Source of the DNA: a virus
Strand: one strand, 5' to 3'
DNA length: 34,530 nt
IMG/VR virus record: IMGVR_UViG_3300047440_000258
Span: 1 to 34,530 of that record
Part shown: piece by piece, positions 24,595 to 29,729 of the stretch
Position numbering within the stretch: position 1 is the first letter of the stretch
Layout of the letters: the number at the start of each line of letters is the position of its first letter
Position numbers and translations under genes: made by a program
Notes under the pieces: model-generated
What the model was told of the DNA's origin: nothing
The model's input: the letters and a program-made list of their open reading frames with translations, nothing else
Database searches by the model: none

Positions 24595-24866
24595 GCGAGC
24601 CATTTGACGTTCCCGAGAAGCGCTGTAAGCGCGGCCACGTAATACCACTCAATGGCGCGGTGGTGGGCCATGAGAAGGATGTCTTCGGAGCGATCCATCC
24701 AGTAGTCCTTAAGAATCCTAGGCTTATCTGCGAGGAATGCGCCCATATCGACAGCGGGGGCGAGACGCTCGAAGGAATGAGGCATCGCCCGGTCAAGGGC
24801 AAGCGGCTAGAGAAGCTGGGGCAAGAGAGCTTCCTGAATACGGTACCGGCGAAATTTATCAGCTGA
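24591..24866 (+). CDS. Hypothetical protein with CxxGH and CxxC motifs
   Basis: Start at 24591 (ATGA with the upstream stop), 91 residues. Cys/His residues C12, H16, C48 and C51 (KRCKRGHVIP, LICEECAHID) suggest a single zinc site. The C-terminal part is basic. It shares a base with the methyltransferase start. Role unknown. Confidence 0.6.
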   Translation: MSEPFDVPEKRCKRGHVIPLNGAVVGHEKDVFGAIHPVVLKNPRLICEECAHIDSGGETLEGMRHRPVKGKRLEKLGQESFLNTVPAKFIS

Positions 24867-25597
24867 TGCGGAAGCCTTTGGCGATTGACCTATTCTGCGG
24901 CTTGGGTGGCTGGACCGAGGGCCTTTTAGCCGAAGGCTATGACGTGGTGGGATTCGATATAGAGCGCCATGTGTACGGGGATCAAAAGTATCCAGCCCAG
25001 TTAGTTCTTCAGGACGTACTGACGCTACACGGATCGCAGTTTAAAACGGCTGCGCTGATTGTGGCTAGCCCTCCCTGTCAGGCTTACTCTTATCGAGCAA
25101 TGCCTTGGAAGAAGGCCAAGGCCCTACCCCCTCCAGATAATTCCCTGTTTGAAGCATGTTTCCGCATTGCTGGTGAGGCTGGAGTGCCACTGGTGGTGGA
25201 GAACGTCAAGGGGGCTCAGAAGTGGGTAGGGCGCGCCAAGGCCCACTATGGAAGTTTCTACCTATGGGGCGATGTCGAGTCCGTGGGTTCTTCAATAATC
25301 GCCGGCGAGTTTAGGTTTGGGCAAGCGCTTAAAAAAGGGCAGGCCGTGAAAGTACCTGGGATGAATTGGAGCGGATCAGACAAGCCTGGGTATGTGGCGC
25401 AAGCGTTCAATGGTACGGCAGTGAAGAACCATGCTCACGGCGGCGGTTGGTTTCACGAGAATAGAGATCATCCCCTTAGGGCCACTTCAAGCGGATCATT
25501 GGCGCGCAGAATGGCAAGCGCGAACGTGGCTAAAATCCCTTTCCCTCTATCAAGTTACATAGCTAGATCGTTCAGGCATCGTAAATTTATTTCGTGA
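24866..25597 (+). CDS. C5-cytosine DNA methyltransferase
   Basis: The ATG within TGATG at 24866 gives 243 residues, preferred to a longer frame from 24737. Motif I is FCGLGG (10-15), motif IV is SPPCQ with catalytic C71, motif VI is ENV (112-114), and the C-terminal motif X-like helix is SSYIARSF (~229-236). It transfers a methyl group from SAM to cytosine C5. It is shorter than typical host enzymes (target-recognition region reduced), like many phage copies that protect DNA from host restriction. No cognate restriction enzyme is adjacent. Sequence specificity cannot be read from the protein. Confidence 0.9.
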   Translation: MRKPLAIDLFCGLGGWTEGLLAEGYDVVGFDIERHVYGDQKYPAQLVLQDVLTLHGSQFKTAALIVASPPCQAYSYRAMPWKKAKALPPPDNSLFEACFRIAGEAGVPLVVENVKGAQKWVGRAKAHYGSFYLWGDVESVGSSIIAGEFRFGQALKKGQAVKVPGMNWSGSDKPGYVAQAFNGTAVKNHAHGGGWFHENRDHPLRATSSGSLARRMASANVAKIPFPLSSYIARSFRHRKFIS

Positions 25598-26170
25598 AAT
25601 AGTGGAACTGGCGCGGCGGTGATCGCGTACCGAGTCCCGAGGCGGAGAGCCTTGGGGCGGCAACTGGTGAGACACGGTGATTGAAACAGTATCATGCAGC
25701 GGATGCCAACGATGCCCGGTGGGACTATCCTGCCGCCAGTTTTTGTGTTATGATGGTTCTGCCTACCAAGGCACTCAGTTCCGGGGCACCCGCGGGGGCC
25801 AGCCGTAAAAAGCTCCACCGCGCCAGTGCCCCAACTCGAATACCTTGCTGGCCGAGTTGGAACCTGAGTGCGACGCATTCAACAACCCGAGACAGTATTG
25901 GGCACGAGGGCGATCCCTGGCGTGCTGGTTTCCCATTACACAGGTAGAGCTTCAACGAAACCAACTAGTTGCACCAAGATAGGCTCGGAGGAGTGGGGAC
26001 CGTCCTGCCAGACACAGGCGTCATCACCTGGATTTAAGCATTCAGGTTAAAGAGTGAGCGCCCTGCTTGGAATTGGGACCTGGGCAGGGAGAACCCAAAC
26101 TATCTAGTGCTTTGGAGTAGTCTTCTGACAGAAGCAGTTTAAGGCCAAACCCCTTAGACCAAGGGCAAAG
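25598..26170 (+). ncRNA. Candidate large structured non-coding RNA upstream of HNH endonuclease gene
   Basis: About 570 nt without a credible reading frame in an otherwise gapless operon. Pairings seen directly: 25635-25643 with 25649-25657; 25656-25662 with 25731-25737; 25771-25782 with 25859-25871 (one bulge); 25783-25788 with 25827-25832; 25833-25838 with 25853-25858; 25902-25910 with 25915-25925; 26026-26030 with 26043-26047; 26061-26066 with 26084-26089; 26122-26126 with 26130-26134. Three of these join with no free bases as a three-way junction. An alternative long stem is 25607-25616 with 25818-25827. A ribozyme/intron remnant or a large phage RNA of the ROOL/GOLLD kind are possible; class undecided. 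Confidence 0.6.
26151..26165 (+). promoter_or_regulatory. Hairpin sequestering the HNH ribosome binding site
   Basis: CCCTT (26151-26155) pairs with AAGGG (26161-26165) around AGACC. AAGGG is the only Shine-Dalgarno-like sequence for the GTG start at 26172, so the hairpin would hide it. Phage T4 homing endonuclease genes use similar hairpins to limit translation. Confidence 0.5.
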
Positions 26171-26171
26171 T

Positions 26172-26726
26172 GTGAACAAAAAAATCCTAGATCGAGAAAA
26201 CAGAAAATTGTTCGATCCGGCGTTCACGAAGTTTTATGGACGCGCTTGGGAACCGCGCGACAGGAAGAGAAACCCACAGACGCTCGCTCGACGCATTGCT
26301 TTGAAGTTGGATTTATCGACGGCCAATCTCACCAAGAAACGCGCGCGTGCAATACTGCTGGATTTCGTTGGGCATATGCCACTGGTTGAAGCGCCTAGGG
26401 TTGTAGTCGTTAAGACCAAGCAGGCGAAACCCCAGAAGCTCACCCCGCGAATAGTAAAACAGAAGCCGAATGGCCGTAAGCCTAACGCCTTCTACGATTC
26501 GAGGGAATGGTTCGCGCTTCGCTATCAAGTCCTGAAATTGTACAAAGCTTGTTGCCAGTGCTGCGGCAGATCACGCCGAGATGGAATCATAATTCACGTC
26601 GATCATATCAAGCCGCGTCACGACTACCCTGAGCTTGAATTAGAACTTAGCAACCTGCAAGTTCTTTGTAATGAATGCAATCTAGGTAAATCGAACGTAG
26701 ACAATACAGACTGGAGAACCGCATGA
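26172..26726 (+). CDS. HNH endonuclease
   Basis: GTG start, 184 residues. The C-terminal part is a complete HNH unit: zinc cysteines around C127-C131, H142-V-D-H145, then NLQVLCNECN (161-170) with C166/C169 and K173, i.e. the CxxC...HVDHxKP...N...CxxCNxxK pattern. The first ~100 residues are basic and helical and may bind DNA; FYDSREWFALRYQVL precedes the catalytic part, as is usual. It is more A/T-rich in its codons than the flanking genes, suggesting acquisition. The stop overlaps the next ATG (ATGA). A free-standing homing endonuclease is the best reading; a packaging-associated HNH nuclease is less likely this far from the terminase. Confidence 0.85.
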   Translation: MNKKILDRENRKLFDPAFTKFYGRAWEPRDRKRNPQTLARRIALKLDLSTANLTKKRARAILLDFVGHMPLVEAPRVVVVKTKQAKPQKLTPRIVKQKPNGRKPNAFYDSREWFALRYQVLKLYKACCQCCGRSRRDGIIIHVDHIKPRHDYPELELELSNLQVLCNECNLGKSNVDNTDWRTA

Positions 26727-27370
26727 CCCGCTGCCCGCATTGTGGCAAATCGCTAGAAGTTAAGCAAATAACTGGGATTATTGGACTTAGCGAAGTGGAA
26801 GAGTGGTTCTGTCGTGAATTTTGGCCGCTGTTTCCACGCAAGGTTGGCAAATATGCGGCGCTCAAAGCCTGGAAGAAAGCAGCGACTAGCGAGAATTCAA
26901 AAGACGCGATTATGGCGGGCTTAAAGGCGCAACTACCGAGGATGCAATCACTTAGCAAGGAATTCATCCCTCACGCGTCGACATGGCTCAACGGGCGCAG
27001 ATGGGAGGATGAGCGTCCAGCGTCCAGCGAACGTCCAGCGAACGTCCAGCGAAAAATCGCCTGCCAACTATGCGGGGATGCGGGGACCATTAGCAGCTTC
27101 CCCGATGCGGATACGATGGTGCTTGCGCCCTGCTCCTGCGCGCGTGGTGCGCTTCCAGGGCTGATGGTGGGCGTCTACAGGGTATCGACGGGCGAGCGCT
27201 TAGGCGATGCGCCAGTGCAGTGTTCCCTCTGTGCCGATACGGGGATTATGCGAGCATCTGAGTGCATCATTGCAGGATTACGGGTAGATGCCCGCCTAGA
27301 GCGCTGCTCTTGCGCTCGCGGGCAGTTGCCGGGGCTCGTGATACCCCAGGCGGAGGAGACGCCCTTCTAG
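26723..27370 (+). CDS. Replication-initiator/helicase-loader-like protein with zinc motifs
   Basis: Of 215 residues, the N-terminus has a zinc knuckle (CPHCGKSL). Residues ~27-95 hold a pattern typical of phage replication proteins: WFCREFWPLFPRKVGKYAAL, KAWKKA, then IPHASTWLNGRRWEDE. After a linker (ERPASSERPA) there are two related Cys modules, CQLCGDAGTI...CSCARG and CSLCADTGIM...CSCARG, probably a DnaJ-type double zinc finger. A loader or origin-binding role is inferred. The linker is encoded by 11-bp repeats that could be iterons. It ends the rightward early operon; its TAG overlaps the TAG of the converging gene. Confidence 0.7.
   Translation: MTRCPHCGKSLEVKQITGIIGLSEVEEWFCREFWPLFPRKVGKYAALKAWKKAATSENSKDAIMAGLKAQLPRMQSLSKEFIPHASTWLNGRRWEDERPASSERPANVQRKIACQLCGDAGTISSFPDADTMVLAPCSCARGALPGLMVGVYRVSTGERLGDAPVQCSLCADTGIMRASECIIAGLRVDARLERCSCARGQLPGLVIPQAEETPF
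27014..27053 (+). repeat. Four CGTCCAG repeats (iteron-like) inside the replication gene
   Basis: CGTCCAG starts at 27014, 27021, 27032 and 27043; the last two intervals are 11 bp, close to one helical turn (unit CGTCCAGCGAA). An A-rich stretch follows at once (GAAAAATC). Not a multiple of three, so the repeats are not explained by peptide repetition. Confidence 0.75.
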
Positions 27371-29612: not shown

Positions 29613-29729
29613 TCTGGGCTCAGGTATCAGGTTCTACTAGTAGAGGATCGCGGTTTCTACTAGTAGAAGTAGGGGGGGGGTACCCATTACAAAAATAATC
29701 TTGAATTGCTAGCTGGTACAACTTGTACC
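29613..29729. repeat. Cluster of five palindromes downstream of the small terminase gene
   Basis: GGGTACCC at 29613-29620 and 29678-29685; TCTACTAGTAGA at 29633-29644 and TTCTACTAGTAGAA at 29655-29668 (centres 23 bp apart, about two helical turns); GGTACAACTTGTACC at 29715-29729 (7+1+7). A run of nine G (29672-29680) lies at the second GGGTACCC. No gene covers 29599-29881. The arrangement suits a protein-binding array such as a packaging site, origin or late control region. Confidence 0.8.

Follow-up and report, generated by a model that had tools for sequence, protein, structure and literature searches.

What occupies the roughly 570 nt of non-coding DNA that separate a methyltransferase gene from an HNH endonuclease gene in an otherwise compact viral operon? 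The locus is part of a contig of 34,530 nt (IMG/VR record IMGVR_UViG_3300047440_000258), analyzed here over its full length and referred to as the window, and a first-pass annotation had seen no credible gene in the gap and proposed instead a candidate for a large, highly structured RNA, one option being a new class linked to a mobile HNH gene. A hidden gene can be rejected on the codon log-likelihoods, which are negative for each of the six frames of the gap (-0.13 to -0.25 per codon, versus +0.03 to +0.23 for genes); a period-3 pattern in G+C was looked for and is absent, and the open reading frames inside the gap have no match in PHROGs. The upstream methyltransferase is complete, as its relatives align up to residue 280 of 286, and the structure prediction for the HNH protein is of low confidence in the N-terminal half. 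Note that the next reading frame, at 26723-27370, encodes a replication-initiation-like protein that matches PHROG 270 over residues 174-259 only, a short zinc-ribbon-like start replacing the usual N-terminal domain, and that in a further non-coding stretch a palindrome-bearing word, TTCTACTAGTAGA, occurs twice (29632-29644 and 29655-29667), possibly as operator sites.

Searches with the gap sequence yielded no relative in phage records or among the loci we fetched, and its exact DNA pattern is absent from the viral contigs. Relatives of the methyltransferase carry no gap sequence similar to that of the window, and relatives of the terminase do not cover the gap. The Rfam covariance search proposed by the annotation returned no family for the gap, and the whole window gave no match at gathering score and chance matches only at E values up to 10. 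The candidates that had been named, ROOL, GOLLD, HEARO and group I or group II introns, are thus matched by no covariance model, and a search for tRNA and tmRNA genes in the window found none.

The pairings themselves are all present in the sequence, and the observation as a whole is confirmed. In the closed three-way junction, the stem is formed by 25771-25778 with 25864-25871 and 25779-25782 with 25859-25862, with one bulged C at 25863, and the inner helices by 25783-25789 with 25826-25832 and 25833-25838 with 25853-25858; the 10-bp long-range pairing of 25607-25616 with 25818-25827 was likewise found. The 101 nt of the junction fold at -51.3 kcal/mol, a value that none of 200 shuffles reached (-34.8 +/- 3.3), and in a position-corrected test, to which each shuffled gap contributed its best 101-nt stretch, 1 of 200 equaled it. 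The fold of the entire 573-nt gap is moderately unusual (z -2.03 on the plus strand, -0.73 on the minus strand), and the 3' part alone lies near its shuffles (z -1.13).

Table 1. Features of the locus, in window coordinates.
Feature	Position	Strand	Remarks
C5 cytosine methyltransferase ORF	24737..25597	+	Pfam DNA_methylase; probable start near 24866; end overlaps helix a
Helix a, 5' strand GGCATCGT	25575..25582	+	crossing helix of the pseudoknot; 8 perfect pairs with 25709-25716
Helix b, 5' strand GGAACTGGCG, terminator hairpin	25604..25613	+	pairs with 25734-25743; alternative 10-bp partner 25818-25827
Helix c, 5' strand AGTCCCG	25633..25639	+	pairs with 25720-25726; competes with local hairpin 25634-25658
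Helix a, 3' strand ACGATGCC	25709..25716	+	partner of 25575-25582
Helix c, 3' strand TGGGACT	25720..25726	+	partner of 25633-25639
Helix b, 3' strand and T-run CGCCAGTTTTT: predicted terminator	25734..25744	+	T-run 25740-25744
3' RNA domain, extent uncertain	25745..26171	+	non-coding; position like 3' domains of relatives; GGCTC 25982-25986
Closed three-way junction of the 3' domain	25771..25871	+	MFE -51.3, z -5.07
HNH endonuclease gene, 184 aa	26172..26726	+	Pfam HNH E 4e-10; PHROG 144 E 4e-20

The annotation had let the element start at 25598, and while its description of the gap as non-coding stands, this boundary does not, as the element begins at about 25575, with helix a falling within the last codons of the methyltransferase gene. 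Helices b and c together make up a long hairpin that is crossed by helix a and ends in T5 (Table 1). A scan for this combination of pseudoknot and terminator over both strands of the 34.5-kb window found exactly one site, the one in this gap, with a score of 59.5 that was reached by 0 of 100 shuffles. This score is among the lower ones of all matches, and helices b and c are split by 19 and 7 unpaired bases in the window, while they stack tightly in most relatives. No recognizable sigma-70 promoter precedes helix a in the window (best 7/12), and the RNA, if made, may originate from upstream transcription or from a host-specific promoter. As the long-range pairing of 25607-25616 with 25818-25827 competes with the terminator helix, it could form only in read-through RNA.

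The same architecture recurs in other phages and backs the claim that a large structured RNA lies close to the HNH gene. Relatives of the HNH protein in phages and viral contigs often have 300-700 nt of gene-free DNA directly upstream, as in Sulfitobacter phage phiGT1, Xanthomonas phage Kintu, Vibrio phage 2.095.A and many IMG/VR contigs, and on the stretches upstream of HNH relatives Rfam gave nothing at gathering score save for the locus L106. The topology sought was a-b-c-a'-c'-b' and then a T-run, where helix a lies towards the 5' end and a loop separates c from a'; in the recurring form, b and c are joined in a single long terminator hairpin, and pairing of its loop with helix a makes an H-type pseudoknot. 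From locus to locus the letters are almost wholly different and the topology is alike, and this recurrence with unrelated letters suggests a poorly known, fast-changing kind of viral RNA. A literature search found no description of this architecture, an absence that is no proof.

Our script detects the topology in about 25 loci, each with 0 of 100 dinucleotide shuffles at that score. Across both strands of 905 kb of viral loci it returned 48 matches, some of them doubled at adjoining T-runs, and most lie on the plus strand ahead of an HNH or similar gene. Among 63 independent viral HNH clusters, 13 have the pseudoknot upstream on the plus strand and 50 are without an upstream pseudoknot, versus 2 in the upstream minus, 1 in the downstream plus and 0 in the downstream minus controls; since the rules and threshold of the script were set after examples had been seen, these counts represent an enrichment, not an unbiased test. 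HNH relatives in bacterial genomes showed the topology in 0 of 69 loci, a control whose mix of HNH relatives differs from that of the viral set. Outside HNH loci, pseudoknot matches form a background of a few per megabase. Two Stenotrophomonas relatives of Kintu extend the range of downstream genes: in L143 the pseudoknot stands directly before a DUF559/REase-like gene, and in L142 it precedes an HD-domain gene, a case seen by eye only and unscored by the script. The link to DUF559 is anecdotal, as no more than one of the 48 loci of DUF559 relatives (L232) has a pseudoknot ahead of the gene.

The helices of the pseudoknot covary in Vibrio phages. In five Vibrio phages with aligned flanks, 96.8% of the cells are paired, on a structure derived from one of them, and six pairs are changed on both sides, three of these in the crossing helix a; none of 500 shuffles matched this, and slid versions pair at 32-56%. 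In the set L077, L078, L093 and L096, two pairs in helix a are compensated, a result matched by 66 of 500 shuffles. Most loci also have a sigma-70 promoter (TTGCAN or TTGACA, 16-18 nt, TATAAT or near) whose end lies 3-27 nt ahead of helix a, and promoter scores of most relatives are 8-11 out of 12. The L057 stretch is matched by 313 Vibrio phage records and, among the matches listed, most cover only its first 42-53 nt or so, the promoter. Positions 1742-1790 of L057 and their equivalents represent a near-constant promoter, about 42 nt long and shared by hundreds of Vibrio phages, and very different non-coding cassettes and genes follow behind it, like at a cassette exchange site. Note also that L081 and L082 have a 3' RNA and HNH gene in common and terminators that differ in sequence, have the same shape and are enclosed by TCAGGC/GCCTGA, which suggests, from comparison of the two loci, that the pseudoknot module was exchanged.

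Behind the pseudoknot many loci contain a second structured RNA, of several types that have no sequence in common. One well-supported type is the 3' domain of the L057 type, from Vibrio phage 2.095.A, where 19 of 57 pairs show compensatory changes among six distinct sequences and 97.6% are paired versus at most 45% in slid controls; the 57-pair alignment was fitted to the model, whereas the first model, with 12 compensated pairs, was built by RNAalifold before any such fitting. A covariance model of this type finds a remote homologue in L080 (E 7e-7), again between the pseudoknot and the HNH gene. In L106, positions 2093-2214 match the Rfam orphan family RF02932, 'Betaproteobacteria-1' (106.8 bits), as the 3' domain between the pseudoknotted terminator and the HNH gene, which provides a phage context for this family; the 3' domain of the window is without a match to the RF02932 model. 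In the V. breoganii phages 1.242.O and 1.240.O, the L057-type domain directly follows a tRNA-Arg and the HNH gene is absent, and phage 1.226.O has a pseudoknot at the place of the tRNA-Arg. The same 3' RNA is seen after tRNA-Arg in L146 and L147 (1097-1471 in both) and after a pseudoknot in L148 (1025-1420), so that, judged from these loci, tRNA and pseudoknot seem to be interchangeable 5' neighbors of the 3' RNA. In L063 a tRNA-Gln (1763-1838) lies directly behind the pseudoknotted terminator, followed by another structured stretch with GGCTCC and then the HNH gene. In L094, at about 1930-2060, a tRNA-like T-arm CTGGTTCGAGTCCAG is found in a long closing helix behind the pseudoknot, a region in which ARAGORN calls no tRNA.

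For the 3' domain of the window, no homologue was detected in phage records, in the fetched loci, by pattern in viral contigs or with covariance models, and the models R1 and R2 of the Vibrio (L057-type) 3' domain gave nothing above chance on the window with filters off. Its GGCTC lies 237 nt after the T-run, compared to 243 in L057, and TGGCTCC is enriched in the 3' domains of the loci (7 of 20, P about 0.005 by shuffling). The spacing of GGCTC weakly supports a kinship with the domains of relatives, and from position we infer that the window domain would be their equivalent. A long GAGC/GGCTC helix, at first taken as conserved, was dropped.

The annotation's phrase 'linked to a mobile HNH gene' is borne out in that the cassette often stands upstream of an HNH gene; an obligatory link is contradicted, and the earlier interpretation as a whole is partly supported. 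The RNA of Vibrio phage 1.177.O is 98.2% identical to that of 2.095.A over 508 nt, with flanking shared DNA at 92-94%, and has no HNH gene. In other Vibrio phages the corresponding position is taken by a D12 or an N6/N4 methyltransferase, by a T5orf172 protein or by a calcineurin-like phosphoesterase. Because related cassettes occur with other genes or without HNH, the HNH gene is, on this comparative evidence, a frequent neighbor of the RNA cassette and not its obligate partner.

No function is known for ROOL, GOLLD and other large structured RNAs of phages. ROOL and GOLLD were found near tRNA islands, and GOLLD consists of one conserved and one variable half, sometimes with a tRNA in the linker (PMC12286853). 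The present element resembles them as a large structured phage RNA whose relatives adjoin tRNA-Arg or tRNA-Gln; it differs in that the window matches neither covariance model and holds no tRNA, and in that what is conserved, a promoter-proximal pseudoknotted terminator, is defined by its topology alone. We favor, at about even confidence, the reading that a non-coding RNA locus of the phage fills the gap, that it occupies the niche of GOLLD and ROOL, and that its pseudoknotted terminator gates read-through. The locus would span about 600 nt in two domains, a 5' domain of approximately 25575-25744 and a second structured domain at 25771-26170. In the H-type pseudoknot of the 5' domain, the hairpin of b and c, ending in a U-run, would act as an intrinsic terminator, its loop pairing with helix a near the 5' end of the RNA. 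From the order of promoter, pseudoknotted U-run hairpin, second RNA and gene it would follow that many transcripts stop at the U-run after the pseudoknot, as short RNAs, and that a fraction reads on to carry the second domain and, less often, the HNH message. Since the 3' domain is retained without the gene and beside a tRNA, it would most likely be a structured phage RNA that acts independently and in trans; the pseudoknotted terminator would set the output of this domain and of the downstream gene, and the HNH gene would be a hitch-hiking, free-standing nuclease of the homing type.

A rather doubtful but serious alternative is that the element is a cis-acting leader of the nuclease gene, working by attenuation or by a hidden ribosome binding site and having no independent RNA function, in which terminator and structured stretch would limit expression of a potentially harmful DNA enzyme. 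It gains from L074, L078, L124 and L143, where the pseudoknot stands directly before the gene, and from the genes behind the pseudoknot, which are mostly DNA enzymes (HNH, T5orf172, REase-like, methyltransferases). Terminators and RNA structures surround the free-standing T4 homing endonuclease genes mobE, segF and segB, with intrinsic terminators at mobE and segF, and other T4 endonuclease genes hide their ribosome binding site (PMC2988022). The likeness is in such elements around phage nuclease genes; the T4 structures are simple hairpins, however, whereas here a pseudoknot and a second RNA domain are kept without the nuclease in relatives. A mere leader is also hard to reconcile with 1.177.O, which retains the RNA at 98% without an HNH gene, and with the compensated pairs of the L057-type 3' domain beside tRNA-Arg where such a gene is absent. 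That the gap is a non-functional spacer with chance pairings, its pseudoknot an expected false positive, we regard as improbable: the case is one sequence only, with an overall z of about -2, weak 3' domain energy, no promoter and a background of a few matches per megabase, but against it stand the position-corrected junction test (1/200), a pseudoknot (0/100) that is unique in the window and exactly where relatives predict, and the presence of 570 non-coding nt in an operon that is compact elsewhere.

HEARO RNA, the omega RNA of IsrB and IscB, is a structured RNA directly upstream of an HNH-domain protein, an arrangement shared by the window. A partner or guide of the HNH nuclease in a HEARO/IsrB-like ribonucleoprotein, or an RNA antitoxin for the nuclease, would explain why the RNA recurs directly upstream of HNH genes in many phages, and gene order is similar in HEARO and in type III toxin-antitoxin RNAs. 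This reading is nevertheless very improbable. A HEARO/IscB-type guide was rejected, as there is no Rfam match and the 184-aa protein carries an HNH domain only, without RuvC or another known RNA-binding domain; an RNA-guided HNH is made still less likely by the loci in which the RNA stands without HNH or beside other enzymes and by the 50 of 63 HNH clusters that lack it, and a type III system by 1.177.O, which has the RNA without the gene. Hardly credible, finally, is a degenerate or unrecognized self-splicing intron, in spite of HNH being a usual intron-encoded nuclease and of a P7/J8-7-like stretch, GUAGAGCUUC ... CCAAGAUAGGCUC (about 25943-25986), that can be read by eye: RF00028 gives nothing at E 10 in window or gap, the group II models likewise, the upstream gene is complete and not an interrupted exon, and the RNAs of relatives start with their own promoter. 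A GAGC similar to the group I core-like one sits in a local covarying hairpin in the Vibrio relatives. The gap resembles what we take to be the 5' end of a group II intron, an identity rejected as it has no Rfam match and leaves too little room before HNH.

Beyond the single locus, we tentatively consider it possible that one phage RNA class is defined by topology (promoter, a-b-c-a'-c'-b'-U-run) with exchangeable 3' domains, which would include RF02932, the L057 type, tRNA-containing types and the window type, and that its cassettes, present in many phages, act in trans during infection. The locus type is small, shows a clear promoter and a predicted terminator in cultured Vibrio phages, occurs whether or not the nuclease is present and swaps parts with a tRNA gene, so that the function of a structured phage RNA becomes testable by deletion. 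It also illustrates that RNAs which keep their topology but change their letters escape RNA searches based on sequence.
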